The notes beneath the pieces are model-generated. The model worked only from the letters and a program-made list of their open reading frames with translations. It made no database searches and was not told the origin of the DNA. From a virus, in the IMG/VR virus record IMGVR_UViG_3300017963_000152, positions 1 through 37,400 of that record: DNA of 37,400 nucleotides; one strand, 5' to 3'. This document shows positions 3,663-33,893 of the stretch, in pieces. Both the position numbers and the translations under genes were made by a program. Position 1 is the stretch's first letter. Each line of letters opens with the position of its first letter.

Positions 3663-4724
3663 TTACCCCTCACTCTCAGAGGTTGGCTCAATGAGCCTGT
3701 CAAACGACGTGCGCACCTGTATGCCAGGCGTTGCATACTTGGCCTTGACGTCTGCCGGTATGTCATACGAGGTGTACTTAGTGCCCTTGGCGGTGGCCAT
3801 AAAGTCACCAACAATGACACGGTGTATGTCACCAACCTCAAACCTGGCCGGCAACGTGGCCTTGACAGCGGCCTTGGCGTGTTTGTCGAGCTCGTCATAC
3901 CTCTTGCGTGCCTCGTCGAGTTTCTCACGCTCGACGAGCTCAGCGGCCAACTCAGGGTCACTCAGCATGACAATGCCAGGTCCGTGGTCAAGCTCAGGGT
4001 TGCACTGCCGGCCACGCCACTCACAACGCCGGCAATGTGACGGGTCAGAGTGAAATGGCGGCACCTCGTCACGCTTGAGGTACTCAACAACCTTTTCACA
4101 GTGGCTCAGCACCCACTCAGCCACCTCGAGGTCAAGAGTGACGTCAAACACCTTGAGGCCACCCAAGAGGTTGTCAAGGACAATGAGCCCCTCACTCTCA
4201 TCAGCGGCCAAGAGGTACCCTTGTATTTGCCACAGGTACCGCTCAGTCCACGGCCACGTGTGCAAGTCCTCGAGGCACCGCACCTGTGCAAAGAAATTGG
4301 GGTGCATACTCTTGCACTCATACACAGGCTTGGCGCCGTGCCACCTCAGGCGCCCGTCAATGCGCCCAGTGGCCACGAGGGTGCCGTCACGGCCATTGAG
4401 CTCAAACGGCCTCTGACCCTCGACGAGCTCAAAACCAATGTCCTCGAGCAACCGGCCAATGACACGCTCACGCTCGTTGCCAATGGCAAACCTGGCCTTG
4501 AGGTCAGGTGACACCGGCGGCCTGGCATCCCAGTGAGTTATGCTGAGCACCTCAGCACGCAAACACTTGTCAAGCGTACCCAGTGTTGGGTTGCGCTTGT
4601 GCCACTTGCCGGCGTCCTCTTGGGCCAACCGGCGCCAATATGCCTCACGTGCCTCGAGTATGGCCGCGGCCAGGCTTGGCCTCTCACTCACGCTCTGCAA
4701 ACTTGGCTCGTTGCTCTGCGGCAA
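3663..4724 (-). CDS. PD-(D/E)XK nuclease, RecB/Cas4-like exonuclease
   Basis: About 353 residues. I place the start at TTG 4724 because AGGGGGTGAGGACT lies directly before it; GTG 4733 overlaps that site. The nuclease core is visible: acidic helix GNERERVIGRLLED (about 82-95), ATGRID with Asp near 123, then VYECKS with Glu 136 and Lys 138 (the D...ExK signature), and a downstream WQIQGYLLA helix. A later cluster H-C-R-R-C-E-W-R-G-R-Q-C recalls the metal cluster of Cas4/AddB-type nucleases, though it is not the full four-Cys pattern. It directly follows the probable annealing protein, the classic phage pair for recombination, so it likely resects double-strand ends. The C-terminal 120 residues are helical. 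Confidence 0.8.
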   Translation of the reverse strand: MPQSNEPSLQSVSERPSLAAAILEAREAYWRRLAQEDAGKWHKRNPTLGTLDKCLRAEVLSITHWDARPPVSPDLKARFAIGNERERVIGRLLEDIGFELVEGQRPFELNGRDGTLVATGRIDGRLRWHGAKPVYECKSMHPNFFAQVRCLEDLHTWPWTERYLWQIQGYLLAADESEGLIVLDNLLGGLKVFDVTLDLEVAEWVLSHCEKVVEYLKRDEVPPFHSDPSHCRRCEWRGRQCNPELDHGPGIVMLSDPELAAELVEREKLDEARKRYDELDKHAKAAVKATLPARFEVGDIHRVIVGDFMATAKGTKYTSYDIPADVKAKYATPGIQVRTSFDRLIEPTSESEG

Positions 4725-5604
4725 AGTCCTCACCCCCTAACTCGACGAGCTTGTCAACAGCCTCGTCGTACATACTGCGCGGTATGTCAGAAACACCGGC
4801 CACCTGAAACTGACTGGGCAACCAGTCATGTACCCACGCTTGCACGTCCTCACTGGCCATACCAACGGCACGGCCAGCGGCATATGCAATGGCCCAAAAC
4901 CTATTTGCCTGTGGTCCTGAAATGGTGCGTGTGTCAGCCTCACCGTTGGGTGGTGGCGCCTGTGCGGCCTCTTTTTGTTTCTTGCCCTTGTACTCAATGT
5001 TGCTCACCTTGGCGCCGTCGAGGCCGCCGGCTTTCAAGTCCTCGATGGTCATGCCTTGCAAGCCGGCCAACCGTGGCACCGCTCTCGAGTACCAGTTGGT
5101 TTCCGCGGCCTTGGCCACGTCCCACTCGTCGAGCACACCCTTTTGGTTGGCAAAAAACTCGTCACTCGAGGTGCGTGCCCCAGTTATGAGTGGCAGTTGC
5201 ACACCCAGTGTGCGTGAGTATGCGCCGGCACGGTACACGTACGTGTACGAGCCGTCAGGGTTGTTTATGCGCTGTACCTGAGGCTCAATGACGACGAGGC
5301 CAAGCAACGGCGCAATGCGCTGACAACCCTTTTCCTCGAGGTGGTACACCATTTTGCCGCCGGCGGCCTTGTGTCCAACCCAGTCACCGGCGTACGTGGC
5401 CTTTATGAGAGCCGGCTTGAGCATACGCAAGAGCTCAACCATTTTCTCAATCATTTGCACGGTTTTGGCGGGGTCAAGCCGCACCAACGCGGCCATGTGC
5501 TCAGGTGACCACAGTTTGTCAGGCACAAACGCGGCCTCAGTTTCAGGCTCTCGTGGCGGCAATACCTCAACCTCAGGCTCAGCCGCCTTGTCTTTTTCAG
5601 CCAT
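4684..5604 (-). CDS. Probable single-strand annealing/recombination protein
   Basis: 306 residues, ATG behind AGAGGGGTGTTGT. Acidic N-terminus, then a helix (MAALVRLDPAKTVQMIEKMV) and a core with KATYAGDWVGHKAAGGKMVY, KGCQRIAPLLGLVV, SYTYVYRAGAYSRTLG and AETNWYSRAVPRLAGLQGMT. This order (DWV, G-x-x-kiaplfG, then aa-tn-ravtrl-Gl) recurs in phage proteins encoded beside RecB-like nucleases. It ends with a helical domain (GPQANRFWAIAYAAG, YDEAVDKLVEL) seen in annealing proteins. I infer DNA strand annealing from the partner nuclease and the pattern; it is not RecT, Erf or Sak by obvious motif. Confidence 0.55.
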   Translation of the reverse strand: MAEKDKAAEPEVEVLPPREPETEAAFVPDKLWSPEHMAALVRLDPAKTVQMIEKMVELLRMLKPALIKATYAGDWVGHKAAGGKMVYHLEEKGCQRIAPLLGLVVIEPQVQRINNPDGSYTYVYRAGAYSRTLGVQLPLITGARTSSDEFFANQKGVLDEWDVAKAAETNWYSRAVPRLAGLQGMTIEDLKAGGLDGAKVSNIEYKGKKQKEAAQAPPPNGEADTRTISGPQANRFWAIAYAAGRAVGMASEDVQAWVHDWLPSQFQVAGVSDIPRSMYDEAVDKLVELGGEDFAAEQRAKFAERE

Positions 5605-6745: not shown

Positions 6746-6876
6746 ATTCCCCCTCACAGTCAAGAGCTCTCGCCTCAGTTGTCGTCAACCGGCCAGGTGA
6801 GCTTGAGCCGGTACCCCCATGTGGCACAGGGTGGCCCACTGGTGCTCAGGTGTCAAGAGGAAAAACAGACAAAAGA

Positions 6877-6899
6877 GGGTGGCCAATTATTGGCCACCC
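6877..6899 (-). terminator. Rho-independent terminator of the late operon
   Basis: Perfect 10-bp inverted repeat GGGTGGCCAA / TTGGCCACCC with a 3-base loop. In the minus-strand sense it is followed by TCTTTTGTCTGTTTTT. It lies beyond the endolysin, the last late gene, so it should end late transcription before the early block. Confidence 0.8.
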
Positions 6900-6908
6900 C
6901 CTTGCGGT

Positions 6909-7233: not shown

Positions 7234-7683
7234 TCAAACAGCCGGCACACACGGCAGTCTGGCCAGGCTGAGTGGCCGTGGCCTCAAATGGGTGTCAGGG
7301 TGGCACTGCAAGTGGCAGTGGTCCCAGTGCCGGCGGTACTTGTCGAGCTCACCGTACACACATGCCCACAGGTTGCCGCCGGTGGCATACACCCACAGTT
7401 GGTTGAGGTACAAGGCCAGGTCACCCATTTGTGCGCGGGTCAGCCCAGTCGAGTTGCGGCCAATGTCCACACCACGCCACCACGCATGTACTGAGCGTGG
7501 GTTGTCAGGCCGGTACACTGACGTGACGCACACCGCTGAGCCAAACTGGTCAAGGACAAAACCGGCGGCCTCGTACACCATTTGAGTCAGCCGTGGTGTG
7601 CGACTGCGTAACTCGTCAAACTGCCGGCGCAACTCTTGGCGCCTGGCCGGTGTGTCGTCGAGCTCACCAAACCTGAGTTGCAT
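7234..7683 (-). CDS. Endolysin, peptidase M15 (VanY/DD-peptidase-like)
   Basis: 149 residues, ATG after GGCTGAGGTACTAAC. The zinc-site signature of the M15 fold is visible: VTSVYRP (53-59), S64-V-H66 with D73 (SxHxxxxxxD, SVHAWWRGVDIG), and H122-C-H124 in WDHCHLQCH. M15 enzymes cut D-Ala-containing peptide bonds in peptidoglycan, so this is the likely lysis enzyme, acting in the cell wall. There is no signal peptide, so it would need a holin. It is the last late gene, downstream of small membrane proteins, as expected for a lysis cassette. A Cys-rich variation around the HxH is unusual but not disabling. Confidence 0.8.
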   Translation of the reverse strand: MQLRFGELDDTPARRQELRRQFDELRSRTPRLTQMVYEAAGFVLDQFGSAVCVTSVYRPDNPRSVHAWWRGVDIGRNSTGLTRAQMGDLALYLNQLWVYATGGNLWACVYGELDKYRRHWDHCHLQCHPDTHLRPRPLSLARLPCVPAV

Positions 7684-7743: not shown

Positions 7744-8208
7744 TTAGTGGCCAGGTGCCGGCTGAGGTTTCATGTCCTCAGGCAACAGGTCAACCCAACT
7801 CTCACCCTTGGCCACGAGCTTGTTGAGCATACCAACCAAGAGTGTGAGCGCCACCCGTATGGCGTCGTCGTCGAAACGCTCTGCAATGACGCCAAATGGG
7901 CCACCAATGTCAATGACGTCGTCGAGCACGCGGGTGACGGCCTCGAGCTTGAGTTGGCCGGCCTGAGTGTCAGGGTTGGCCTCTTTGATAGCGGCCACCG
8001 CAACCTCAGCCGCGGCCATGAGGCCAATGACGAGCGTGGCCAGTGCCTCACCCGTTTGTTTGAGCTCTGTCAGACTGTCAAACGGGTTGCCCCTTATGAG
8101 AGCCACCAGTTTGCGCCAGGTGCTCTTGAGCTTGTCGAGGTCAACTGCCGTACTTATGTACGCAATGACTTGCTCGAGCGCCTTTTTGTCAATGCTCACT
8201 GTACTCAT
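7744..8208 (-). CDS. Helical protein of the lysis region, possible holin-LLH-like
   Basis: 154 residues. ATG shares its A with the upstream TAA (TAATG) and has AAGGGGGTTTTCTA in front. There is a moderately hydrophobic helix (LATLVIGLMAAAEVAVAAIK, about 58-77), then KLEAVTRVLDDVIDIGG and IRVALTLLVGMLNKLVA. The pattern of a hydrophobic helix, EA-V-VLDD, and a C-terminal LV-MLNKL recalls proteins annotated as holin LLH family. The helix is weak for a membrane span, so a cytoplasmic role is possible. Confidence 0.65.
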   Translation of the reverse strand: MSTVSIDKKALEQVIAYISTAVDLDKLKSTWRKLVALIRGNPFDSLTELKQTGEALATLVIGLMAAAEVAVAAIKEANPDTQAGQLKLEAVTRVLDDVIDIGGPFGVIAERFDDDAIRVALTLLVGMLNKLVAKGESWVDLLPEDMKPQPAPGH

Positions 8209-8710: not shown

Positions 8711-8914
8711 TCATACCTTTTGAGTGCGCCCACGCTGAAACCAACCCAACGCAAACCACATGGGTGCGCTGAGAGCCTCGAGGTTGCCGTTTTTGACGCA
8801 CAGTGCCACATACCCCCCAACGAGTATGACGGCCACAATGCTCATGCCTGTACTCACTTTGAGGCCGCTGACCTCGACGTGTGGCGGCATTTTCATGTAT
8901 GGCGGTACTTTCAT
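8711..8914 (-). CDS. Small single-span membrane protein, holin candidate
   Basis: 67 residues, ATG after AGAGGTGCGTC, overlapping the upstream stop (ATGA). One clear transmembrane segment (MSIVAVILVGGYVALCV, about 24-40) follows a Pro-rich N-terminus, and a second weaker hydrophobic stretch (LSAPMWFALGWF) precedes a basic tail (RGRTQK). Size, topology and position upstream of the endolysin fit a holin or a holin partner. No family recognised. Confidence 0.65.
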   Translation of the reverse strand: MKVPPYMKMPPHVEVSGLKVSTGMSIVAVILVGGYVALCVKNGNLEALSAPMWFALGWFQRGRTQKV

Positions 8915-9261
8915 GACGCACCTCTCTTTGCCTTGACCTCTTGAGCCTTGAGTGCCGCAATGCTCTCACCATGACGGTTGAGCCGGCTGAAAATAGTTTC
9001 ATGCTCTCGTGTGTGCATTGCCGCACACTTTTCGAGTGCCGTTGTCATGTCCTTTTTGAGCTCACGCCGGTCACCCTCAAGGTCAGCCTTGAGTTGTTCA
9101 CGCTGTTTCACCTCAACCTCGAGCAATGCCTTGAGCTTGGTGACACTGCCATTGAGTGAGCCAACAGTGCGCCCAAGAGCAAACCACACCCCCACGGCAA
9201 CCGTACCACCAAGGGGAACACCAACCGCGGCACCCAGTTTGACGAGCTCTGCCGTGTCCAA
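8911..9261 (-). CDS. Membrane protein with coiled coil, lysis region
   Basis: 116 residues from TTG 9261 behind GGGGGGTTGACCA. An N-terminal hydrophobic segment (LGAAVGVPLGGTVAVGVWFAL, about 9-29) is followed by a long charged coiled coil (KALLEVEVKQREQLKADLEG, ALEKCAAMHTREHETIFSRL). The architecture recalls XhlA/hemolysin-type lysis accessory proteins but in reversed order (membrane span first). Could be a holin accessory or spanin-like factor. Confidence 0.65.
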   Translation of the reverse strand: MDTAELVKLGAAVGVPLGGTVAVGVWFALGRTVGSLNGSVTKLKALLEVEVKQREQLKADLEGDRRELKKDMTTALEKCAAMHTREHETIFSRLNRHGESIAALKAQEVKAKRGAS

Positions 9262-9264
9262 TGG

Positions 9265-10320
9265 TCAACCCCCCAGTTTGCCAATGTTATATGGGCTCGA
9301 GTCAGCCGCACCAATGCTGAAAGTCTGTTGCTTGTAACGCCGGCGGCTGAGGTAGTCAGTGTATTTGGTGGTGACCCGCCACTGGGTGTTGGCGGGTGTT
9401 ATGTCAGAGTTGCGGTACAACTCAAATACAAACGTGCCGTCAGCGGCAGTGGTGGTGTCAAATGGGCTCATAACAAACGCGCCCGTTGAGGTGACTGTGG
9501 GTATGTTGGTGTACCCTGGCGGCACTACAAGCTCACACTCAATGGTCACGTTGGGCACACCCTGGCCGGTACCCTCTTGCAAGTACCCAACGGCCATGAC
9601 TCTCATGGGGTTGACTGGGTCACCAGGGTCAAACTCATACCCCAAGAGGCTGTCAGTGACAGCCGTTTGGTACACAAAGAGGCTTTCAGCCGCGGGAAAC
9701 TGCACGCCACCAGGCACAGTTTCACCGCCAACCAAGAGGGTGTCAGGGTTGTCGGGCTCAGGGTACGTGAAACTGAAAACGCCGGCGCTGTTGGCACGGC
9801 CATGAGCAACAACCCAACCGTCACTCGAGCGCACGGTCACAGTGGCCGCCGGCACAGCCGCGTCAGGTGTTTGTGACGTGTCCACACAGACAATGGTGAC
9901 CGGCACATTGCCAAATATGTCAAAGTCGTCACTGACTTGCCAACGGTCCACAGAGGGTGGCGTGCGCCCTTGTACGGTGTATATGACTGACCGGCACACA
10001 TAGTCACCTTGTACGCCGGCGCTGTCAGCGTCAATGACCTTGCCCCACAGTCCTGGCCCCAAACTGTCACCGTAGTCAACCCGCCACAGCGTGGCCACAC
10101 CGTTGACCACTAGGTACGTGCGCATGACGACACTGTCAATTTCAGCCTCGTACAACTCGTATGCGTTGCCCAGTGAGTCAGCCGGCACAACCGGCACGAG
10201 GTGTTTGGTGCCAGGTACGTGTATGTGCTGAGCCACGGCCACCGTGAGCACGCACTGGTTGACGACGAGAGCCAAGAGCACTGCCATGACGGCAACACAC
10301 AACCTCTGTGAGCGTGTCAT
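9265..10320 (-). CDS. Exported protein with two Ig/CarboxypepD-like beta domains
   Basis: 351 residues. ATGA overlap with the upstream gene; GGGGGGTGTGAA in front. A classical signal peptide is present: basic MTRSQR, hydrophobic LCVAVMAVLLALVVN, then AVAQH near residue 30. The mature part holds at least two beta-sandwich-type segments of carboxypeptidase-regulatory style: AAVPAATVTVRSSDGWVVAHG with NSAGVFSFTYP (about 155-195), and GQGVPNVTIECELVVP with TTAADGTFVFELY (about 255-310). Likely acts outside the cytoplasm or on the virion surface. Tailed-phage structural proteins rarely carry signal peptides. Confidence 0.75.
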   Translation of the reverse strand: MTRSQRLCVAVMAVLLALVVNQCVLTVAVAQHIHVPGTKHLVPVVPADSLGNAYELYEAEIDSVVMRTYLVVNGVATLWRVDYGDSLGPGLWGKVIDADSAGVQGDYVCRSVIYTVQGRTPPSVDRWQVSDDFDIFGNVPVTIVCVDTSQTPDAAVPAATVTVRSSDGWVVAHGRANSAGVFSFTYPEPDNPDTLLVGGETVPGGVQFPAAESLFVYQTAVTDSLLGYEFDPGDPVNPMRVMAVGYLQEGTGQGVPNVTIECELVVPPGYTNIPTVTSTGAFVMSPFDTTTAADGTFVFELYRNSDITPANTQWRVTTKYTDYLSRRRYKQQTFSIGAADSSPYNIGKLGG

Positions 10321-11111
10321 TTCACACCCCCCATATAATACGAGCCGGCGTCAGCCACGTTGCCTGTGACGCATACCACTGGTTGCCGGCGGCCACTTGG
10401 CGGCACAGCCGGCGGTGTGTACTCAATGTATAGGTACGGTTGGTTTGACCCAAAGTCATATGTGTAAAAGTCGAAAAAGTGGTTGCCTGTTGGTTGTGGG
10501 CCAGCACATGACTCAATCCTGGTGGTGCCAACTCCCAAGCACAGGTACGCGCCAGTACCCATGTGCGCGGTGACGGTGTCAGCGTTGACCGCAATGTGGT
10601 TGTATTGACCCACGCTGACTGGAAACGCCTTGCTGCCAATAAAGACACCGCCGGTGCCGTAGTCACTCGAGTCAATAGGCCAGTCGTCAGCAATGCGTTT
10701 GACTGTTATTGACCCAAGAGTCTCACTGTTGCGCCATATAAACACTCTGAGCTCTGCCGTGGTCACAGTACCCTTGAGTCCACTGAGGTCAAACCTCACG
10801 CGGCCACGCCAAAAAACAAAATCGGTTTGAGCCGCTGTGTACCTTGCGCCAACTGGTATGGTCCCAAACGATGTGTTGGCGTTTTTTGACCCCCACGTGC
10901 CTGAGCAAATGTGCCACCACGTGTAAAAAGGTAAGAACTCAGTGCCTTGACAATATGTGTACCCGTCGTCACCACTGGCGGCAACGTACACTGTGGCCAC
11001 GTCAGCCTGTGAGGTGCCGCACAACAGGGTCAGGCCAAGGGTCAGCGTCAGAAACAGCACCCTCAGGCTGTGTGGGCAGTATGTGTGGCGGTTGTTGTGC
11101 GGCACTCTCAT
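10317..11111 (-). CDS. Exported DNRLRE-like beta protein
   Basis: 264 residues, ATG after GAGGTGACAAC. The N-terminus has basic residues, then SLRVLFLTLTLGLTLLCGTS and QADVA, a signal peptide with likely cleavage near 36-39. The mature part has RGRVRFDLSGLKGTVTTAEL followed by RVFIWRNSETLGSITVKRIA and a late YDFGSNQPYLYIEYTP. This matches the style of DNRLRE domains (FDLS-L-G---A-L-l), which occur in secreted bacterial adhesins. Stop and next start overlap (ATGA), so it is translated together with the second exported protein. Confidence 0.75.
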   Translation of the reverse strand: MRVPHNNRHTYCPHSLRVLFLTLTLGLTLLCGTSQADVATVYVAASGDDGYTYCQGTEFLPFYTWWHICSGTWGSKNANTSFGTIPVGARYTAAQTDFVFWRGRVRFDLSGLKGTVTTAELRVFIWRNSETLGSITVKRIADDWPIDSSDYGTGGVFIGSKAFPVSVGQYNHIAVNADTVTAHMGTGAYLCLGVGTTRIESCAGPQPTGNHFFDFYTYDFGSNQPYLYIEYTPPAVPPSGRRQPVVCVTGNVADAGSYYMGGVK

Positions 11112-11120
11112 GTTGTCACC

Positions 11121-12614
11121 TCATGCGTCAGCGTACTCACCAAGCCTGACGTCAAATGCGCCATAGTTGCAGAGCCACGGTGAGGTGCTCACCAGGTTGT
11201 CGTTGGCGTCATATGCCTCAACCTGAAACACCCCCAGTTGTTGGTCAGCACTCTCACCAAGGTTGAAAGCCTCACCAACCGTGGTTGTAAACTTGAGTTT
11301 CTTGGGTGGCCCAGTCTCAGTTGCGGGGTTGTCGAGCACGAGCCGTTTGTACTGGTTGTTGGCGTGCCTCAAATAAACATACTCACCAGGGTCAAAGTAC
11401 CCAAGCTCTGTTACTGTGGCCTCGTCAACCTGAGCCTCTGAGTCACCTGAGCCAACAGCCGCCGTGAGCTTGAGGGTCACCAGGTCAGACGTTACCCATA
11501 TACGGTGCAAGAGGCCGTCATGAGGTGTCAGGTCAATGGTGTCGTCAGTGATTGACCCCATGTGAAACGAGGCAAACTGGTACACACGTTGGTTGGCGCC
11601 ACTGGCCTCAATCTTGATACGGTACCACCTCATGGTTGGTATGCCCACGTGTATGCACCACTCAAACACGCTCGTGTCGTCGTCAAAGTCACCTGGTATG
11701 GTCACAATTTCTTGCCAGTCACCCTCTGCAATGCCCTCAGCGCCGGCCAAACTACCCACAGCGTCAGTGCCCGTGCAATACACGGTGACCACGCCGGCGC
11801 CGTACTGTTTCGTTTGCAGTCTTATGCGCTCGAGCATACGGTTGTTGACGCCACTGGCCAGTTGACAATATATGTACCCAGTGTTACCGTCAGCCACGTA
11901 TGCGTAGTTGCCGCTGTTGTCGTTGAGAGCATTGGCCGCGTCAACCACGTTGCCATCAGCCCACGCATTGACACCAAGCTCAAACAGAAACGGCCCACGG
12001 TCAGCGCCAACGCAACGGTAGTTGTTTGTCTCGTACGCGGGTGTACCCTCGACGTCAGAGCGCACGGCAATGCTCAACATGCGCGTGGCGTACACGTCAC
12101 TTGGGCTCGTGCCCAAGGCTTGCGTGGCGTACGGTTTCACGTCAGCATCGTTGAAATAATACAAGTCACATGGCGGGTTGTCGTCGTAGTTGTCAGCGTA
12201 CACCGTGAAATTGGACCCCTCAGCCACCCACAAACCAATAAAGTCACCGGCCTCAACAGCCAAGTCACAGTCGTGCTCGTATGCACCCTCAGCCAACATG
12301 GGTGTCGTCATTTCAGCCACACCTCGTACGTAGTAAGTACCTGAGTCCTCGTACACCACCACCAGGCACACCTCACCAATGGGCACATACCTCGAGTTGT
12401 GGCCTGTGAGCTCGTTGTGGTAGTACAGTGACCACGCCTTGGCTGTGAAATTGGCGCTCACCTTGAGGCTCTTGTCAAAGTACACGGCACCCTGGTACAA
12501 GAAGCCAGTCACCCGCTGTACGAGTGGCCACCCGACAAAGTCTTGACATGTGCGCCGTGCTATTTTCACGTACTCGACGTTGGCGTTGTCAGGTATGTCA
12601 ATGCAAAAAGACAT
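11121..12614 (-). CDS. Distal tail / adhesion protein with F5/8-type C-like domain
   Basis: 497 residues, ATG after AGAGGTGAGCTCAC, overlapping the methyltransferase end. The centre (about 225-350) reads ANALNDNSGNYAYVADGNTG, GVNNRMLERIRLQTK, WQEIVTIPGDF, then MRWYRIKIEASGANQRVYQF, a galactose-binding-like (discoidin, F5/8 type C) pattern that usually binds carbohydrate or lipid. The N-terminal 180 residues form a separate beta domain (SLYYHNELTGHNSRYVPIGE); the C-terminal 130 residues include a collar-like EYVYLRHANNQYKRLVLDN. Without a signal peptide and in the tail cluster, it is a likely receptor-binding or tail-tip component. Confidence 0.75.
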   Translation of the reverse strand: MSFCIDIPDNANVEYVKIARRTCQDFVGWPLVQRVTGFLYQGAVYFDKSLKVSANFTAKAWSLYYHNELTGHNSRYVPIGEVCLVVVYEDSGTYYVRGVAEMTTPMLAEGAYEHDCDLAVEAGDFIGLWVAEGSNFTVYADNYDDNPPCDLYYFNDADVKPYATQALGTSPSDVYATRMLSIAVRSDVEGTPAYETNNYRCVGADRGPFLFELGVNAWADGNVVDAANALNDNSGNYAYVADGNTGYIYCQLASGVNNRMLERIRLQTKQYGAGVVTVYCTGTDAVGSLAGAEGIAEGDWQEIVTIPGDFDDDTSVFEWCIHVGIPTMRWYRIKIEASGANQRVYQFASFHMGSITDDTIDLTPHDGLLHRIWVTSDLVTLKLTAAVGSGDSEAQVDEATVTELGYFDPGEYVYLRHANNQYKRLVLDNPATETGPPKKLKFTTTVGEAFNLGESADQQLGVFQVEAYDANDNLVSTSPWLCNYGAFDVRLGEYADA

Positions 12615-13230
12615 GTGAGCTCACCTCTTTGACGTACAGGTTTATGTGGAATAGGTCAGCCGGCGGCCTTGGCAGTTTCCTCGAGCTCACCAGGTTGAAA
12701 CCGCACCTCGTAACTCTGTGGTGTACCTCTGCCGCCGTATGGTAGTGCCGGCCTGACGCCGGCGCCGTCACGGCTGACCATTTACCCTTGGCAATTAGCC
12801 TGAGTACCTTGTACCACCAGGTTTCAGTTGGTTGACAGGTCAGCAAATGGCCCCCCTCACAGAGCACACGGTTGAGCTCGAGCACGGCACGTTGCAACTC
12901 AGGTACATGCTCGAGAGTGTCAAGGCACGTCACCATATGCCACCCCAATTCGAGCTCGTTGAGCCGGCGCACGTCCTGAGTGTCAAACTCAACACCTGGC
13001 ACATGACCATTGAGCAAGTACACCTCACCGTGTAGGTCAACCCCCTTGAGCCGGCGTGGTCGCCACGGCATATGAGCCACAGCACTGACAAACTCACCCT
13101 TGCCGCACCCAACGTCAATGAGGCTCTCAGGCTCGAGCTCAGCCACAAACTGGCCGGCCACCTCGAGCCGCCGGCGAAACAGCCAACGCACCGCGGGGTT
13201 GCGTGAGCCGTACTCAGGCATTGGCCTCAT
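12598..13230 (-). CDS. SAM-dependent class I methyltransferase
   Basis: About 210 residues; start at ATG 13230 or 13221 (the latter has TGAGG four bases away). The Rossmann SAM-binding motif I is LIDVGCGKGEF (38-47), the motif II acid is GVDL (Asp65), and TCLDTLEHVPE (101-111) is the post-motif typical of Methyltransf_11/23 enzymes. The C-terminal segment (PASGRHYHTAAEVHHRVTRC) matches the usual FH-ft-eel region. No DNA-target motif (DPPY, PC loop) is present, so the substrate is more likely a small molecule, sugar, lipid or protein. It lies between two tail genes, which suggests modification of a virion or host-surface component. Confidence 0.85.
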   Translation of the reverse strand: MRPMPEYGSRNPAVRWLFRRRLEVAGQFVAELEPESLIDVGCGKGEFVSAVAHMPWRPRRLKGVDLHGEVYLLNGHVPGVEFDTQDVRRLNELELGWHMVTCLDTLEHVPELQRAVLELNRVLCEGGHLLTCQPTETWWYKVLRLIAKGKWSAVTAPASGRHYHTAAEVHHRVTRCGFNLVSSRKLPRPPADLFHINLYVKEVSSHVFLH

Positions 13231-13243
13231 ATTAGGTGTCACG

Positions 13244-13762
13244 TCATGGGTACCGGCCACTGGTGCCACCCCCAACATACGGCATGGCCGGCGGCCAACT
13301 GGCCCCAAAACCGCCACCCGCCACGCCAAATGCAAACAGGTTGCCCAAGTCGTACGTGACCCTCTCGAGGTTGAGCGCCACCAGGCGCACCTCATTTTGG
13401 TGGCCGGTGGCTCTGCCGGCTGACCATTGCCGGCGCCACGGTCCCTCAACCCTCATGGGCCAGTACCTCTCACAGTCCTTGTGTGGCCACACCAACACCT
13501 CGTCAGCCTGTGCCGCCAGTTGCCATGTGAGCTCGTCGTCACGGCTGAGCCAACGGTACACAAACGTCAGGTTGAGCCGGTGCCTCAGGTTGACCTCGAG
13601 CTCTGTGTAATCCACCAAGCTCTTGAGCTCACTGTCACGGTCCCATGCCCACAACAGTTGTTGCGGCCTGGCCACCGTGTCAGCCTCGACGAGCTCACCC
13701 CACACGTTGAAAACGAGCTTGGGGTTTGAGGTGCCACCTATTGAGCCAAAGAGCTTGCCCAT
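13244..13762 (-). CDS. Tail-region protein, unknown
   Basis: 172 residues, ATG after GAGGGTGTGAGGT, four bases from the upstream gene. MGKLFGSIGGTSNPKLVFNV then ADTVARPQQLLWAWDRDSEL and LTFVYRWLSRDDELTWQLAA. The end is Gly-rich (LFAFGVAGGGFGASWPPAMP). Position among distal tail genes implies a baseplate or fibre component. No family recognised. Confidence 0.7.
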   Translation of the reverse strand: MGKLFGSIGGTSNPKLVFNVWGELVEADTVARPQQLLWAWDRDSELKSLVDYTELEVNLRHRLNLTFVYRWLSRDDELTWQLAAQADEVLVWPHKDCERYWPMRVEGPWRRQWSAGRATGHQNEVRLVALNLERVTYDLGNLFAFGVAGGGFGASWPPAMPYVGGGTSGRYP

Positions 13763-14713: not shown

Positions 14714-17700
14714 TCACGTGGCCGGCAGTATGCGCTCGAGCAACATGACACCCACACTGCCGTCAAGTGGGTTGGGTTGCAGTCCAATGACAAGCCACTC
14801 GAGGCCGCTGAGGTCAATTTGCGTGAGCTCAGCCGGCACGTCAACACTTATGGCGTCAGTTATTTCACCCTCAAGCCACAGGTCAAACATGGCCAGGGTC
14901 ATGCGCCGGTAGTTGGCCAAGAAATACCACAGGTTTTCAGCCACCACACGTGCCATGTGCGGTGTTTGCACAAACGGGTTGTCAATGGTCAGCACCCGCC
15001 GGCCAAAACCAGTGTCACCGTACACCTCTGTGCCTGTGCGGCCTCTGTGATCACGCCAGTTGACGGCCACCGCGTCAGCACTGTGCGGCCACTGACTTGG
15101 CCCATATACGGCTTGTACCGTGGCCGCCAAAACTGAGGTGGCCGCGTCGTCATGAGCTCGAGGCTTGAGTACGAGGTCACCAGTTGGTTTCATGTGGCAG
15201 AGCATGGCCATTATTTCAGCCACGGCCTCAACCACGGTGCGCACTGTGTCTGACTCACCAAAAGAGGCTTGCATGAGCCTCACGTCAAACTCAGTGGCAT
15301 ACTGCCAAAAGAGCCACTCGACGTCGGCCGTGAAACCATATAGCCGGTCATTAGCGCCGTCACTCATGAGGTTGACCGGCAAATGGCACTCACCAGCCAT
15401 TATTTCACCGGCCACCTCGTTGACTATTGGCACGCCACCACTTGAGCTTATTTTCACGAGCCTGGCCGGCACCTCGTTGTGCCTGGCGTCAGTCTCACAT
15501 GCGTACACGTAGTGGTCAGCGGAGTGGTACACCATGCCTTGTATGGCGTGCTCGTTGTCGAAATTCGCCAGGGTTGTGTATATTGGCGGGTCATTTGACC
15601 TGGTTGGGTACTCAGAGCTCAAGTCGAGGTTTATGACCCCAAGCCTATACTGCAACAAGCCACGGTCAAGAAACGTGACGTACAGTCTCTCTTGGTTGGG
15701 GTTGTAACACATGTCAACAGGCCACCATGCGCCACTATCGCCACTTTCCCATACGGTCAGCCGTGCCGCTCTGACGTCAGTGTACTCACCCTCAGCACCG
15801 CCGGCGGTTTGTATTCTGAAACGTATGTAATACAAGTCGTCACTGCCAGGGAAAACAGGCGGGTGGTCAGCCACCCAGTTGCTCAACAAGTCACGGTCCC
15901 AAGGCACAGAAAACCAGTGCGTTTTGTACCCAGTGGTTTTCATGTCGGCGGTGTCGTCCTGGTGTACAGTACAGTTGACCCAGTCTGCGCCGTCCCAGTA
16001 TTGCGCCACCACGTTGGGTGAGCCGCTCAAGCCGGTTGTTATGCCCCATGTCGGCGTACACCACTTGGTTTTGAAACCCACTGCAATGTAGTCGCCCACG
16101 TCCTTGGGTATGGTTTTGGGGTCAGCGTCAGTTTCGTCAGTGTATGCGCTGTTGTCGTACAACACAATTTGCTTGGGCTTGTGGCCGTCAAGCCCTTGGC
16201 CAACCCACATGTCAATAAACGTGGGTGACCTGTGGTTGCCTGGCAGTGAGCCGTTGTCAATCCAATACGTGTATGCAAGAAACTGACATTGCCAGTACAC
16301 GCTTGAGCCTGGCCGCTGAAACGGCCCAGTGGTCATGGCCTGAAAGTGGCTGTCACGGTCCTCGAGCACAGCCTTGAGACTTGCAGTCACACCACCTGAC
16401 GACGCACTGAAAAAGTACAGTGCATTGCAGTTGGGCAACGTCAGTGGCCGGCTTTCAAGAAACATGCCGGCGTTGAGGTAGTCCACACCAAACGCCTTGC
16501 GGGTGCCCCAGTTGACTCTCAGGCCAAGCCTGGTGGCCGCGGTGTTGTACGCTGACACGACGTAAAAGCCTGGCACGAGCCACTCAGGCAACCGCCCGTC
16601 ACCGCCGGTTGCCACCTCGTCAAAGAGGCTGTTTACGTCATGGTCAAATTGGACATACTGAGCCAAGGTGTCAGCATGTATGACGAGTTGAGGAAACGGC
16701 ACAATGACGTTTTCACTCTCACTTGAGCCCGTCAACTGGCCCACAACCAGGTTGGCCCCAACCACACAGCCGGTGCGGTATATGTACCGCGTGTCAACAA
16801 TTTCATGTAAGGCAAAAGTGACATACCCCCAGTACAGCACTGCCGTGTTGTCACTGGTGAGCTCAAACATGAGACTGTACTGACCCTCAGGGTACTCAGC
16901 GGGGTCACGTGACTCAGTGGGTTTCTCGCGCCGTATGGCCATGCCTGAAACGCTGTCGTCACCCTCTGAGTATGCCAGGCCGGCCACCTCGTACCGTGGC
17001 GGCAACCGCCATATTAGTTGAGGCTCACCCTCTCGAGGCAACAGCCACAACTCGTTTTCAAGGCCAACCACAAACTCACCACGCACCTTGTCAAAACAAC
17101 TGGCGGTGACCTTGAGGTTGCTCGTCATGTACGGTATGCGCCCCCAAGGCGCAACAAACTTGGCGCTCGAGGTGAGCACACAGTCAGCCAACTCTCGTTT
17201 TGTTGAGCCGTAAAAGGCCGCGTCGAGTGCGCGGGTGACAACGTCATACAGCCTCGTGGTGGTGTACCATGTGGCCGGCACAGGGTCACCGTTGGCATCA
17301 GCCACAATGACCACGTCGTCACTCAGGTCACCAATGGTGAGGTACTCAAACTCTGTTACAAACCCCAGTTTGTCAGCCTTGGCGCCGGTGGCCTCTTGGT
17401 ACCTGAGTATTTGCCTGGCCTTGGCGGTGTTGACGTTGTTTATGGTGCGGCCTATGCGTACATAGTAGTACCGTGGTGTAGAGCTCGAGCCGTCGAGCTC
17501 ACCCTTGAGAGCCCAGTCAAGTGGTATGTCCCAGTATATGAGGCCGTCCTGGTCAAAGTCGTCAGTGAGGTCAGTGAAAGTGAGTGTCTGCCAGGCGGTG
17601 CCGTCCCAGTATTGCATGGTCATGTTGCCTGCACCAGTCCAACCCGTGCTGTCGTCGAGCACAAAGTACGCACCACCAAATGGCCGCCTGGCGCCCAAGT

Positions 17701-19318
17701 ACAGGTAGTCAGTTGTGTCGTCAGCAATAGAAAATGACGTGCCACCGCGGGTTTCAGCCTCAACCGTGCGGTCAGTCCAACCGCCCTTGTACCAGTACAC
17801 CACGTCAAACACCGGCCTGAGCTCGAGGTCAGGTCCGTTGTCAAACGTGACCACTGGGTGGCCAATGTGCGTGGCGTCGTACGGCCTGAGAGGGTCACCG
17901 GCCATTTCAACAACAACACGGCGCGTGCGCAAGGTGTCACGCTCATACTTGTATGGCCGCCAACCGCGTGGGTACTCATAAACACGCTCACGCCACTTGA
18001 CAATGTACTGAGTGCCCCTCGTCGTCACAATGGCAATGTCCTCGTCGTCAGCCAATGGGTATGAGCCTGGTTGAAACTCAGCCGTGAGGTCACCACCACC
18101 AACGTCAGCGTGTGCCGGTAGTGTGTCCTCAAAACTGTCACCCGCGCCACTTGGTATTGTCCACGCGCCCATTGCCCAACGCCACGAGGTTGGCCGGCGA
18201 AACTGCAAACGGTACACGCCGTCGTGCGTTTCGCTCTCAATGCTCTTGAGGTCAATGCCGGTGAGTTTGGCAGACTCGAAACGGTACCTGAGAGGCCGTG
18301 GCCCATATACTGGTGCGCCGGCGGGTGGCTCGACGTACCTGAGAGGCTTGAGCGCACGCATTTTGGGCAACAGGCCACCTTGTTGTGACACAAGGTATGC
18401 CGGTGTACGCTCGAGGTCACGCAACATGCCATACCCAGTCATGCTCAGGGTGTGCTCTCGTGCGTTGTACTGTATGGCCTTGGGTGCAATGAGGCCACCC
18501 ATGACCATGACCTGGTCAGTGGCACCCTCAATGCCAAGGTGTAGCTGAAAGTACACCACACGTGACCTGTTGACAATGAAACGGTCACCGGCAACCACGC
18601 CGTCAGTGTCGAGCCGGCCCCTAACGTATATGTCGTCAGCGTCGTTGTCATATACGTGGTAGCGTTTGCCTCGAGCCGCGCCACTGAGCATGACAAGCTC
18701 ACCAGGAAACAGGCCGTCAACTGTGAAACTGGCGTTGGTGTCAGTTATTTTGGCACAATACGAGCCCACGGCCACTGGGTTTGAGGTGGCGGTGCCCATG
18801 ACACCACGCATGTATAGTGGGCCACTTTCGCTGTCAGAGTCGTACAGCCACTTGTTAGGGTCATTGAGCACCACTGACATTTGGCCTGAGTCAAACTTGT
18901 TGAGTGACTCACCCTCGAGCTTGAGGTCAGGCACGCTCAAGCCGCCGTCTGCAATGAGGTGTGTGACGTCCCATGCCGGCGCCAGGTATGCACCAATGTC
19001 GTCGTCAGTGAAAGTGTCGTCAGGCACGTCAAAATTGACGGCTGTGCGCCCGTTTGAAATGACACCACAGTTGACCAATGGCAACAGGCCGTCATACCTC
19101 TTGCTCGACACGTACACCATGTCACCGTAGCCAACGGCGCCGGCCACCTGGCTTGGAAACATGGGTGCCATTTGACCGTCAACGTACACACTCTTGCCGC
19201 CGGTCACAATACTGGCCACCGGCGCCTGGTACTGAGGCAACAGCAAGAGCCGGCGTAAGAGGTCATACCCTTGTTTCTTGTTGCGTATGTCCTGAAAAGC
19301 CTGTGTCAGTGTCCTCAT
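14714..19318 (-). CDS. Large tail-tip / hub protein
   Basis: 1534 residues; start overlaps the tape-measure stop (ATGA, 19315-19318). The N-terminus (TQAFQDIRNKKQGYDLLRRL) leads into beta-rich sequence. Two copies of the same beta module are visible near residues 560-640 (MQYWDGTAWQTLTFTDLTDD, YYYVRIGRT) and near 1100-1190 (AQYWDGADWVNCTVHQDDTA, DDLYYIRFRI). The last 190 residues (VVEAVAEIMAMLCHMKPTGD, VVAENLWYFLANYRRMTLAM) resemble the C-terminal hub portion of tail-associated proteins placed after the tape measure. It probably forms the distal tail hub and may carry the host-contact surface. No lysin motif seen. Confidence 0.75.
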   Translation of the reverse strand: MRTLTQAFQDIRNKKQGYDLLRRLLLLPQYQAPVASIVTGGKSVYVDGQMAPMFPSQVAGAVGYGDMVYVSSKRYDGLLPLVNCGVISNGRTAVNFDVPDDTFTDDDIGAYLAPAWDVTHLIADGGLSVPDLKLEGESLNKFDSGQMSVVLNDPNKWLYDSDSESGPLYMRGVMGTATSNPVAVGSYCAKITDTNASFTVDGLFPGELVMLSGAARGKRYHVYDNDADDIYVRGRLDTDGVVAGDRFIVNRSRVVYFQLHLGIEGATDQVMVMGGLIAPKAIQYNAREHTLSMTGYGMLRDLERTPAYLVSQQGGLLPKMRALKPLRYVEPPAGAPVYGPRPLRYRFESAKLTGIDLKSIESETHDGVYRLQFRRPTSWRWAMGAWTIPSGAGDSFEDTLPAHADVGGGDLTAEFQPGSYPLADDEDIAIVTTRGTQYIVKWRERVYEYPRGWRPYKYERDTLRTRRVVVEMAGDPLRPYDATHIGHPVVTFDNGPDLELRPVFDVVYWYKGGWTDRTVEAETRGGTSFSIADDTTDYLYLGARRPFGGAYFVLDDSTGWTGAGNMTMQYWDGTAWQTLTFTDLTDDFDQDGLIYWDIPLDWALKGELDGSSSTPRYYYVRIGRTINNVNTAKARQILRYQEATGAKADKLGFVTEFEYLTIGDLSDDVVIVADANGDPVPATWYTTTRLYDVVTRALDAAFYGSTKRELADCVLTSSAKFVAPWGRIPYMTSNLKVTASCFDKVRGEFVVGLENELWLLPREGEPQLIWRLPPRYEVAGLAYSEGDDSVSGMAIRREKPTESRDPAEYPEGQYSLMFELTSDNTAVLYWGYVTFALHEIVDTRYIYRTGCVVGANLVVGQLTGSSESENVIVPFPQLVIHADTLAQYVQFDHDVNSLFDEVATGGDGRLPEWLVPGFYVVSAYNTAATRLGLRVNWGTRKAFGVDYLNAGMFLESRPLTLPNCNALYFFSASSGGVTASLKAVLEDRDSHFQAMTTGPFQRPGSSVYWQCQFLAYTYWIDNGSLPGNHRSPTFIDMWVGQGLDGHKPKQIVLYDNSAYTDETDADPKTIPKDVGDYIAVGFKTKWCTPTWGITTGLSGSPNVVAQYWDGADWVNCTVHQDDTADMKTTGYKTHWFSVPWDRDLLSNWVADHPPVFPGSDDLYYIRFRIQTAGGAEGEYTDVRAARLTVWESGDSGAWWPVDMCYNPNQERLYVTFLDRGLLQYRLGVINLDLSSEYPTRSNDPPIYTTLANFDNEHAIQGMVYHSADHYVYACETDARHNEVPARLVKISSSGGVPIVNEVAGEIMAGECHLPVNLMSDGANDRLYGFTADVEWLFWQYATEFDVRLMQASFGESDTVRTVVEAVAEIMAMLCHMKPTGDLVLKPRAHDDAATSVLAATVQAVYGPSQWPHSADAVAVNWRDHRGRTGTEVYGDTGFGRRVLTIDNPFVQTPHMARVVAENLWYFLANYRRMTLAMFDLWLEGEITDAISVDVPAELTQIDLSGLEWLVIGLQPNPLDGSVGVMLLERILPAT

Positions 19319-21858
19319 TTGCCTGGCTCATACCTCTCGTTTTCAACGTCGAGCGCCGGCAGTATGTACTCTCGTGCAATGCGCTCAAACCCATGCCTGG
19401 CGTCACCTGGTGAGAAAATGGCGGCACCCCTCAGGTCAAAACGGTTGTTGGCATACACGAGTGGACCTGGCAGAGCGCCGGCGCCGGCGGCCTGAGCACC
19501 CAACCCAAACTGTGCGCTCTGTGGTGTGCCGGCCATATTGTTGTAGGCCATGTTGGACATGCCACCCACGAGCCCAACCAAGGCACCCAGTGGGCCACCG
19601 GCAAAAAACCCCCCAACGCCGGCCAACAGGCCACCAAGAAACCCTGAGCGCCTGGTCATTTCAGCCAACATTTTGGCCATTTGCTCTCTCATGGGGTTGA
19701 AAAGCTCACGCAACCAGGCGGCATATATGCTCTTGGCGGTGTCCTCGAGCTTGACCTTGAGGCCGTCAGACGCAAACGCAATGTGCTCAAACGTGCTCTG
19801 CAAGCCGTTGTCAATGGCAGAGCCCAACCCTTGCCACAGCTCTTTGAGTTTCTCAGCGTCCTCTTTTTCTTGCTTGAGTTGAGCCTTGCGTATTTCTGCC
19901 AACCTGGCGTGTACCCACTCAGCCACGGTGACACGTTTGGTGCCGGCTGAGGTCCACACGTCAACATACTCGAGGCCGGCGTCAGCCCACACCTTGACCT
20001 GGTCATACACCCGTTGGCGCTCTTGGTCCCATTGACTCTGAAACGTCTGTGCAATGGTTTTGGCCGCGTCCTCATGTATTTGTTTGCGTTTCTCAGTCTG
20101 TGCCTTGGTCACCTCTGTCAAGAGCAACTGGCGCAACTGTGCCAACGTGTACGTTTTGTCGTACTGTTCCTCGAGCCACTGAAAGTGCCCACGCTCAAAA
20201 TTGAGGGTGGTGCGCAAGCCGGCGTCACGTATGGTGACCTCGTCAATACCGGCCTTGCGTAGTGCGTCAATGCGCTCGTCAATGGCACGTTTGGTGAGCT
20301 CTGTTTCTTGAAACAAGGCTTGCTCAGCCACCTTGACGGCCTCAGCATACAACCTCTTTTTCTCGTCGAGAGTCTTTTTGTCGGGTGCCGGCACGCCGGC
20401 GTCAGTTGTTGGTGGTGCCGCGGCGGTTGGTATTGTTATGGGTTTCCGGTTGGCCTGGTTGGCCTCAAACTCAGCCATGCGTTTGTCAAACTCAGTACCA
20501 AACGCACTCACCGCGGCCTTGCCGGCGTTGCCGTATATGTCCTTGACGTCATTGACCAGGCCGTCACCCTCAGAGGTGTCAATACCAAAGAGCTTGGCAA
20601 CCCTCTTGACTATGCCGCCAACCCAGTCTGCAATGCGCCCAAACACGGCCTTGACGTTGTCACCCAACCACTTTATGCCGTCCCATATTTTCTCAGCGGC
20701 AAACTTGAGCGCACCCCACATGAGGCCGGCGCCACGCTTGACGAGCTCAAAGAGCTCGAGTATGACCGGAAACTGAGTGGTGAAACCTCTGACGAGGTTG
20801 ACGACGTATGCCTTGGCCGCCACCACGCCGGCTTGTATGGCGTTGACAAATGTGGCCCACGCACGCCGGCCACTCTCAGTGGTTGTCAGCCACACCACAA
20901 GGCCGGCAACAATACTGGCAATGAGCGCCGGCAACGCTGACGCCTTGAGTATATTCCACGCAAACGTGACAGCCTTTATGCCGGCGGCCACAGCCGGAAA
21001 TGCTATTGCCGCGGCGGCCAGTACAGGCACGAGGTCACCCGCGGTGCTCGTCAGGCCGGTCAAGCTCTCAGTGCCTCGAGCAATGAGTGAGTACATGGTG
21101 GTCATGGCGGGTTGTAGTTGCTCACCAAATGCAATGGCCAGGTCACGAGTGGCCTTGGTGGCACGGCCTTGCATACCCAAGTACCCGCCCAACTGTTTCT
21201 CGTACGTGCCCATGAACACGGCGCCCTCTTTGATGAAACCATTGGCCGTGGCCAGTGCAAGCTCTTGTTGGCTCAACTGGTTTATGGTTTTGTCCACAGA
21301 GCGTGCGTACTCGAGTTGTATGGTACTTGCGTTTTTGGTGATACCTGAATTGTCAGTGAGAGCCGCCTGGTTGTTTCTTATACCCTCAGTGGTTGAAATG
21401 ATTTGTTGTGCCAGGCTCATACTGGCACGTCTGTTGGCCGCGGCGCTGTTTTTGAGGGTTTCCATGAGCTCAATGGCCTTGGGTAGCTCGAGCCCGCTGG
21501 CCATGAGGTTGCGCAACCCCTCAGCCGCGTCATATTCACTGAGCATTGCGTCAGACAAGTCACGAGCCGCCTTGACAGCGGCCTCACCGTCCTTGCCAAG
21601 AGCGTTGACGACGTCACGCAACACGCTGAGGTTTTGAGTGGCAAACGCGGCCTGGTCAGCGGCACCCTTTATTGCGCCCTTGAGTTTCTGGAATATGAGA
21701 GCGCCACCAACCGCACCAATGGCGTTTTCAAGGCCACTCACCTCTTTTGTGGCCTTGCCAACCCCCTTGACCACCTCACCCGTAAACTGTTTGACGCCGG
21801 CAATGGCACCACTGGCGTCAAGAGTTATTGTTATGTTGACGTCCTTTTGTGCGGTCAC
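19315..21858 (-). CDS. Tail tape measure protein
   Basis: 847 residues, GTG start with GAGGTGACGCC. It begins with a beta/coil DVNITITLDASGAIAGVKQF, typical of tape measures, followed by long helices rich in Ala and Gln. There are hydrophobic segments (LIASIVAGLVVWLTT; VLAAAAIAFPAVAAGIKAVT) and a Gly-rich end (GFLGGLLAGVGGFFAGGPLG). Tape measures fix tail length at about 0.15 nm per residue, so a tail of roughly 125 nm is expected. It is preceded by the tail chaperone pair and followed by the tail hub, the standard order. Confidence 0.92.
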   Translation of the reverse strand: MTAQKDVNITITLDASGAIAGVKQFTGEVVKGVGKATKEVSGLENAIGAVGGALIFQKLKGAIKGAADQAAFATQNLSVLRDVVNALGKDGEAAVKAARDLSDAMLSEYDAAEGLRNLMASGLELPKAIELMETLKNSAAANRRASMSLAQQIISTTEGIRNNQAALTDNSGITKNASTIQLEYARSVDKTINQLSQQELALATANGFIKEGAVFMGTYEKQLGGYLGMQGRATKATRDLAIAFGEQLQPAMTTMYSLIARGTESLTGLTSTAGDLVPVLAAAAIAFPAVAAGIKAVTFAWNILKASALPALIASIVAGLVVWLTTTESGRRAWATFVNAIQAGVVAAKAYVVNLVRGFTTQFPVILELFELVKRGAGLMWGALKFAAEKIWDGIKWLGDNVKAVFGRIADWVGGIVKRVAKLFGIDTSEGDGLVNDVKDIYGNAGKAAVSAFGTEFDKRMAEFEANQANRKPITIPTAAAPPTTDAGVPAPDKKTLDEKKRLYAEAVKVAEQALFQETELTKRAIDERIDALRKAGIDEVTIRDAGLRTTLNFERGHFQWLEEQYDKTYTLAQLRQLLLTEVTKAQTEKRKQIHEDAAKTIAQTFQSQWDQERQRVYDQVKVWADAGLEYVDVWTSAGTKRVTVAEWVHARLAEIRKAQLKQEKEDAEKLKELWQGLGSAIDNGLQSTFEHIAFASDGLKVKLEDTAKSIYAAWLRELFNPMREQMAKMLAEMTRRSGFLGGLLAGVGGFFAGGPLGALVGLVGGMSNMAYNNMAGTPQSAQFGLGAQAAGAGALPGPLVYANNRFDLRGAAIFSPGDARHGFERIAREYILPALDVENERYEPGK

Positions 21859-22926: not shown

Positions 22927-23682
22927 TTACGTTGACGGCGTGTAAACAACCACGTCACCTGTCACGAGGTTTTCAACCAGGAAGTCGAAACCAACTGGTG
23001 CAACCTCAGGGTTGGTGGCGCCAACGCCAAAGTCACCATTGCGCCGGCAGTTGTTGAGGCTCACCCCAACGCCGTCTGTGTAGTACGCACGGCCATACGG
23101 GTCATACGCTCTGAGTGACCCGTACAACTGAAACGCACCAGGCAAGTCGTCAGGCGCCACAGTTATGGTTTCACCCACGCTTGCCACGGTTTTGTAGTAC
23201 GACACGTCGAGTGCCTTGCCGGCGTCACCCGCAACAAACGTCATGGTGGTACCACTTATTTGGTACTCACCAGTGTTGGTGCCCACAGCCACCACCTGAC
23301 GGAATAGGCGCCCGTCCTGAGAAATGACTTGCATGGCGTCAGTGCGTGCCGGCGTGTTGGCAAGGGTAACGGTGTACGGTGCGCCTGACGGCACTGTTAT
23401 TGCCTCACGCTCAACCCACTTGACCGTGCCGGCGGCAGACGTGCCACCAGTCAACGAGGCCAACATGGTGCCGTGCAAGGCACGGAAACCAAGCCGGCCT
23501 GTTATGGGTTGACTCATGGGTATGAGCAAGCTCGAGACAATGTCACCGCGTGGCAACACCACGTTTTCAATACCAAAAGTCAGTTGAAACTCAACAAACT
23601 CAGGGTATTGAAAGTCGTTGGTGACGTCAAAAAACATACCCTTGCCTACCAACATTGGTGTAATCCAAGGGTTGTCAGCCAT
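22927..23682 (-). CDS. Major tail tube protein
   Basis: 251 residues from ATG 23682 (MADNPWITPMLVGKGMFFDV) with AGAGGGGGTGCAAACT in front. The beta-rich core (FQLTFGIENVVLPRGDIVSS, ITGRLGFRALHGTMLASLTG) has the tail-tube pattern. An inserted C-terminal half reads APYTVTLANTPARTDAMQVI, MTFVAGDAGKALDVSYYKTV and ends with VGFDFLVENLVTGDVVVYTP. It should polymerise around the tape measure. Spacing from neck proteins to chaperone supports the call. Confidence 0.8.
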   Translation of the reverse strand: MADNPWITPMLVGKGMFFDVTNDFQYPEFVEFQLTFGIENVVLPRGDIVSSLLIPMSQPITGRLGFRALHGTMLASLTGGTSAAGTVKWVEREAITVPSGAPYTVTLANTPARTDAMQVISQDGRLFRQVVAVGTNTGEYQISGTTMTFVAGDAGKALDVSYYKTVASVGETITVAPDDLPGAFQLYGSLRAYDPYGRAYYTDGVGVSLNNCRRNGDFGVGATNPEVAPVGFDFLVENLVTGDVVVYTPST

Positions 23683-23741
23683 AGTTTGCACCCCCTCTGT
23701 GCTGTGTTGACCTTGCGCCTGGCCTCACAGCCACCACTTGC

Positions 23742-26003: not shown

Positions 26004-26534
26004 TCACTGAAGCCTGAAAATGTACGTGCGCAGTGGTATGCCGCCAGGGTTGTTGCCGTCAACCCATGTTAGGTCAACCCTACAAGCCGGCATACCTGAC
26101 GAAATAATGGGTACCAACGGCCTCGTACGTTTCGGGTTGTAGTATATGACTTGGGACCACACCGGCGTGTCCGTTGACGCCGTGCCCATGAGCCACTGTA
26201 CCGTCACTTTCAACGAGTCCATGTTGGTTGTGGGCCACGAGTACCCAGTTGCCGGCGCCACATAGAGGTGAAACAGCGTGTCAGCGGTGCCCCACGTTTG
26301 CCAGTTGCCCACATATATTGCGTATGTGGTGGCTCGTGGGTCACCCGTAAACACTGACAAGCTCTCAATGCCGGCATAGTCAGGGTTGTACGTCAGCGCA
26401 TTGGCGCTGTCACTGCCGGCGTACACCCCCAACTGTGTTATGCTGTAGGCCGCACTGTTGCCGTCCCGCGGTGAAAAAGCCGCTGACACCAACAGCGCCA
26501 GGCCAACCACTAAAACTGCAAGTGCGCGTTTCAA
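26004..26534 (-). CDS. Exported protein encoded directly after the major capsid gene
   Basis: 176 residues from TTG 26534, seven bases after AAGGGGG; GTG 26567 lacks a usable signal. The N-terminus MKRALAVLVVGLALLVSAAF is a textbook signal peptide, followed by SPRDGNSAAYSITQLG. The mature part is beta-rich (YAIYVGNWQTWGTADTLFHL, SQVIYYNPKRTRPLVPIIS, VDLTWVDGNNPGG). In this slot one expects a capsid decoration or head-completion protein, which would not be exported. It may instead be a surface protein using late expression, such as exclusion or adhesion. No family recognised. Confidence 0.75.
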   Translation of the reverse strand: MKRALAVLVVGLALLVSAAFSPRDGNSAAYSITQLGVYAGSDSANALTYNPDYAGIESLSVFTGDPRATTYAIYVGNWQTWGTADTLFHLYVAPATGYSWPTTNMDSLKVTVQWLMGTASTDTPVWSQVIYYNPKRTRPLVPIISSGMPACRVDLTWVDGNNPGGIPLRTYIFRLQ

Positions 26535-26609
26535 CTCAGCACCCCCTTGTTTGGTTGCCTTGGTCACACCCTCACCACGTCAACTCATATTCTCGAGCTC
26601 ACGCCGGCA

Positions 26610-33322: not shown

Positions 33323-33893
33323 GCAACGGCCAATGACTCTCGACCTCACTGACGACACGTCCTTGACTGCCGCCTTTATCAAACAGCGCCGTGAGTCTCT
33401 CAGCCGCGTCACGCTCTCTTGCAAGCTCAACCTGTAGCTCTGCCACTGTGAGCTCGCTGAGGTGGCCGTTGTCACCAGGCACCCCCTTGCCGGCTTGACC
33501 AGGTACCGGCGCAATGTCCTTGAGCAAGGTGACCACACGCATGAGCTCACCCACGGTCAGCACGTTTTCATGCCCACGTTTGCGTGCCTTGACCTCGAGC
33601 TCGAGCCTCAGCCACCTCTCGAGCTTGATGAGAGCACGGTTGAGCAACTCACCGGCCAAGGTCACGTTGTGTTTGGCGTGGGTGGCCCACTGGTCACGTA
33701 TGTGTTTGGCAAATGGCGGGTGACGGTCCCAACGTCTGACAGTGTCCTCACAGACTCTCAACCGGCGTGCAATGGCCGCCTGAGACAAGTGACCGGCACC
33801 ACGTAACGCAATAAACTCGAGGTGTTTGCCCTCAAACTCGTTGACGTCCTCAGGCAATGTGTGTGGCGCTTTTCGTTGGGTTTGACGAGGCAC
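33288..33893 (-). CDS. Probable terminase small subunit
   Basis: About 201 residues from GTG 33893 (MPRQTQRKAPHTLPEDVNEF) with GGTGGT eight bases before; GTG 33950 gives 220 residues but no signal. A helix-turn-helix is visible in LSQAAIARRLRVCEDTVRRW (about 38-57). Helices typical of oligomerising small terminases follow (ELLNRALIKLERWLRLELEV, VGELMRVVTLLKDIAP), then a C-terminal acidic/basic tail. It recognises the packaging site and feeds the large subunit, which is the next gene. Assigned by HTH and position. Confidence 0.75.
   Translation of the reverse strand: MPRQTQRKAPHTLPEDVNEFEGKHLEFIALRGAGHLSQAAIARRLRVCEDTVRRWDRHPPFAKHIRDQWATHAKHNVTLAGELLNRALIKLERWLRLELEVKARKRGHENVLTVGELMRVVTLLKDIAPVPGQAGKGVPGDNGHLSELTVAELQVELARERDAAERLTALFDKGGSQGRVVSEVESHWPLRGAKSFRPSDS

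Follow-up and report, generated by a model that had tools for sequence, protein, structure and literature searches.

The window (the whole stretch of DNA that was analysed, an IMG/VR virus record of 37,400 bases) harbours two adjacent genes, here called A and B, that are situated between a set of tail genes and a putative lysis module (Table 1). Each opens behind a good ribosome-binding site, GAGGTGACAAC-ATG in the case of A and GGGGGGTGTGAA-ATG in the case of B, and the two reading frames overlap. The genes are arranged in the order tail-tip candidate (14714-19318), CBM_4_9 protein, an open reading frame at 13244-13762, methyltransferase, the gene at 11121-12614, A and B; then follow a protein with a transmembrane segment and likely coiled coil, which begins 3 bp past B, a holin-like protein, a RuvC-like protein (a weak PHROG match), an open reading frame at 7744-8208, the endolysin candidate, which Pfam and PHROGs left unrecognised, and a terminator. 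Promoter-like sites in the A/B region are no more frequent than expected by chance, and A and B are most likely expressed late, together with the tail and lysis proteins.

Judged from its gene content, the phage is a siphophage; neither an Rfam match nor a tRNA was found in the window. Because both window ends share a 54-base direct repeat, located within a pentapeptide-repeat gene, the genome is probably complete and circular or circularly permuted; repeats of such a kind may also fool an assembler.

Table 1. Features of the 37,400-base window
Feature	Position	Strand	Basis or remark
Gene A, 264 aa, exported-type protein, ATG start	10317..11111	-	ORF, Shine-Dalgarno, rule-based leader
Predicted signal peptide of A, residues 1-36 (SQA/DV)	11004..11111	-	Leader rule
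Weak CBM96 (DNRLRE-like) stretch of A, residues 105-145	10677..10799	-	Pfam, below cut-off
ATGA, A stop overlapping B start	10317..10320	-
Gene B, 351 aa, exported-type protein, ATG start	9265..10320	-	ORF, Shine-Dalgarno, rule-based leader
Predicted signal peptide of B, residues 1-30 (AVA/QH)	10231..10320	-	Leader rule; N-terminal helix in model
Weak Big_6 / CarboxypepD_reg stretch of B, about residues 152-191	9751..9858 (residues 155-190)	-	Pfam, below cut-offs
Second stretch of B with similar motif, residues 254-300	9421..9561	-	By eye
Upstream neighbour of A, 497 aa, no family	11121..12614	-	Stop 9 bp before A
Class I SAM methyltransferase, two genes before A, inside tail region	12598-13449	-	Methyltransf_23, E 1.9e-13
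Tail-tip candidate	14714-19318
Downstream neighbour of B, spanin- or XhlA-like, 116 aa with a TM segment at the N-terminus and a likely coiled coil	8911..9261	-	Weak PHROG matches, hydropathy
Putative holin-like membrane protein, 67 aa	8711..8914	-	Hydropathy and position
M15-type peptidase endolysin candidate	7234-7683	-	SVHAWWRGVDIG and DHCHLQ motifs by eye
Strong terminator-like stem-loop closing tail-lysis run	6873..6903	-	14 pairs, 8 G-C
Tape measure	19315-21858	-
Protein C, 187 aa, third leader-bearing protein	26004..26567	-	Leader rule, strong signal-peptide-like start; 42 bp after capsid gene
Major capsid	26610-27554	-
Portal	30434-31885	-
Terminase	31910-33550	-
Cas4-like (PD-(D/E)XK exonuclease-type) match	3663-4733	-	PADLOC, E 4e-6
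Pentapeptide-repeat gene (ADLSN units)	1-402 and 36885-37400	-	Spans contig ends

Leaders and domains of A and B

Export-type leaders were sought with a rule, backed by controls, rather than with a trained predictor; it demands positive charge in the n-region, a hydrophobic core free of charged residues and a motif at -3/-1. These Sec and signal peptidase I sequence elements are present in both proteins. In A the leader reads MRVPHNNRHTYCPHSLRVLFLTLTLGLTLLCGTSQA and is followed, after a predicted cut of the Sec/signal-peptidase-I type, by DVAT; in B it reads MTRSQRLCVAVMAVLLALVVNQCVLTVAVA and is followed by QH, the cut having been placed by eye and the rule's own cut lying two residues earlier. 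The rule matches 4 of the 34 window proteins, namely A, B, the 67-residue holin-like protein and the 187-residue protein after the capsid gene, against a background of 2.9% for shuffled N-termini (6800 sequences) and 8 hits among the 213 other six-frame open reading frames of the window. Among 114 proteins of the control phages lambda, N15, HK97 and JXY1 it selects Lom, Bor, RexB, Rz (twice), Cor, the lysozyme and gp55 of N15 and the HK97 holin, and not a single head or tail subunit.

Given the outcomes with shuffled termini, other reading frames and control phages, the leaders of A and B are real as sequence features and stand above the control level, and we infer that they are cleaved and that both proteins reside outside the cytoplasm. 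The background rates would be in keeping with chance hydrophobic starts on proteins that stay cytoplasmic; yet two adjacent genes both match, and good ribosome-binding sites precede exactly these starts, which renders such a coincidence highly improbable. A lipobox is absent from A and B, and no open reading frame with a lipobox was found; a lipoprotein reading of the pair was discarded on this ground. The sequence-only reading, which had proposed signal-peptide prediction as a check, thus finds its clear signal peptides borne out by the rule against shuffled N-termini and control phages, and its contrast with true tail subunits stands. The ATGA overlap it described is present at 10320-10317 in the open reading frame coordinates, and gene context confirms the tail-region location.

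The same reading had assigned DNRLRE-like and carboxypeptidase-regulatory-like domains to the pair and had labelled both proteins adhesin-like. Matches to short beta-domain pieces do exist, but they are weak, and none reaches its curated Pfam cut-off. A aligns with 43 of the 164 positions of CBM96, which among Pfam models comes closest to 'DNRLRE-like'; the match scores 18.5 bits (E 0.0018) against a cut-off of 26 and has E 5.3e-5 in a six-frame search of the window. B aligns in part with two domains of secreted proteins, Big_6 (22.4 bits against a cut-off of 27.6, E 1.4e-4) and CarboxypepD_reg (15.8 bits against 32.3, E 0.018), and by eye some of the pattern recurs in its second stretch. Trimming the proteins altered the domain scores little. 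The first half of the B motif occurs in two copies, as compared with 6 of 20,000 shuffles, for a motif that was picked after inspection; BLAST of one half of B against the other was not significant, and the C-terminal stretch searched alone matched nothing. AlphaFold models from single sequences are unreliable (pLDDT 33 for A and 37 for B): the sole confident part of the B model is an N-terminal helix (residues 3-28), and elsewhere both models consist of low-confidence strand.

Relatives and comparable systems

Homologues of A or B were found neither in IMG/VR (exact-word scans) nor in INPHARED (tblastn), PHROGs or the PDB. Neither protein matched a PHROGs profile at E up to 0.1, and their mature parts matched none even with the limit relaxed to E 5. 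Pattern scans, which depend on exact words of 8 residues and overlook remote homologues, returned no relatives of A, B, the terminase, the tail-tip protein or the methyltransferase in IMG/VR, and did not find B or the methyltransferase in GTDB genomes. Likewise, tblastn against INPHARED gave nothing for A, B, the tail-tip protein or the products of 11121-12614 and 22927-23691. Matches to the terminase are remote only. Relatives of the capsid sit on contigs of a different layout, with no comparable leader protein beside the capsid gene, and no match to B or the tail-tip protein was found in 50 related records. The tape measure matches Pseudomonas phage KT1 over one 165-residue stretch, with no other gene in common; another match, L095, looks like one of low complexity. 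By these searches the phage is one without close known relatives, and much of its remaining genome appears as isolated as A and B.

Precedents for such a location come from better known phages. In lambda, lom directly follows the tail-tip gene J in the late region and encodes a signal-peptide protein, similarly placed to A and B. Lom has been tied to adhesion and proposed as a partner of the holin, since both genes were co-transferred (PMC9836094). In N15, cor is found two genes beyond the tail tip, a position that A and B resemble; in T5, llp adjoins pb5, and Llp works from the periplasm (PMC9586334). Cor (N15, phi80, T1) and Llp (T5) are small exported proteins encoded beside a receptor-binding tail gene, as A and B would be, and superinfection-exclusion factors of this type block adsorption to infected cells and debris (PMC12685063). 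The likeness to these surface-changing exported proteins is one of position, not of fold. Lom is an outer-membrane protein of the Ail/Lom family (PF06316), and Cor and Llp are small lipoproteins, whereas A and B comprise 264 and 351 residues. Because neither protein gave a PF06316 match in Pfam at E values up to 1, and because both are devoid of a lipobox, A and B are, by sequence, outside the Lom and Cor/Llp families.

Possible roles of the pair

How might A and B act? Analogy of position makes an involvement in surface binding or superinfection plausible, and we tentatively favour the possibility that they are late exported envelope proteins which mask a receptor or exclude superinfecting phage, as Cor and Llp do. 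We picture both proteins being produced late from the tail-to-lysis transcript, exported through Sec, cut by signal peptidase I and released in a beta-rich form, either into the periplasm or onto the infected cell's surface. There they would bind a glycan, possibly, or another envelope structure that serves as receptor, and would hide it from further virions, so that new virions are kept off the cell or its debris; the job would resemble that of Cor and Llp and be carried out by a different fold. This proposal draws support from the controlled leaders on two adjacent genes, from the ATGA overlap and the short gaps to neighbouring genes in a run that leads from tail to lysis genes and ends at a terminator, from the weak carbohydrate-binding and Ig-like matches, and from the positions of lom, cor and llp. 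It is weakened by the sub-threshold domain scores, by the missing lipobox that sets A and B apart from Cor and Llp, by the failure to find a relative that would show a conserved pair or position, and by the direct contact with lysis genes, which fits a lysis role as well. If receptor masking proves true, the exported phage proteins encoded next to tail genes (Lom, Cor and Llp) would be joined by a larger, beta-rich pair in a phage without a close known relative, which would suggest that several unrelated folds perform late masking of the cell surface.

Two other explanations are serious rivals to receptor masking. Conceivably, A and B are lysis accessories that are exported, bind envelope glycans and help to weaken the envelope or to control when it breaks down. 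The transmembrane/coiled-coil gene and then the holin-like gene that follow B so closely speak for this idea, as does the proposed partnership of Lom with the holin; however, adjacency by itself is weak evidence, and neither Pfam nor PHROGs gave an enzyme, spanin or lysis family match for A or B, and we regard a lysis role as unlikely. Alternatively, the two proteins might be adhesins of the virion tail tip or fibres, with uncleaved hydrophobic N-termini that are buried in the tail or make up a tip in contact with the membrane. A location within the tail region, with beta-rich and CBM_4_9 proteins as neighbours, would suit such adhesins, and an uncleaved anchor could also account for the length of the hydrophobic segment of B (24 residues). 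Against this stand the positive n-regions and signal peptidase I-type motifs of both proteins and the behaviour of the leader rule, which passed over every head and tail subunit of the four control phages; a virion adhesin is accordingly a doubtful candidate.

Protein C, for which no family match was found, is possibly related in role to A and B. One could extend this thought to an exported set of C, A and B that leaves the cell before lysis and coats released virions or their surroundings, such that virion decoration or retention would be finished extracellularly, bypassing cytoplasmic assembly; we consider this a very long shot.

Word usage of the genome

The trinucleotide GAT/ATC is nearly absent from the window: its 53 occurrences (486 expected from dinucleotides) amount to 1.4 per kb, as opposed to 33-36 per kb in lambda, N15, HK97, JXY1 and KT1, and the word is about 23-fold rarer than in these five comparison phages. 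Such depletion might stem, for example, from pressure by restriction or modification. Aspartate codons are used at a GAC:GAT ratio of 310:7. TTAA is absent from the window and TCGA is enriched, whilst strong depletion affects GAAG, CCGA, GCGA and GGAG.
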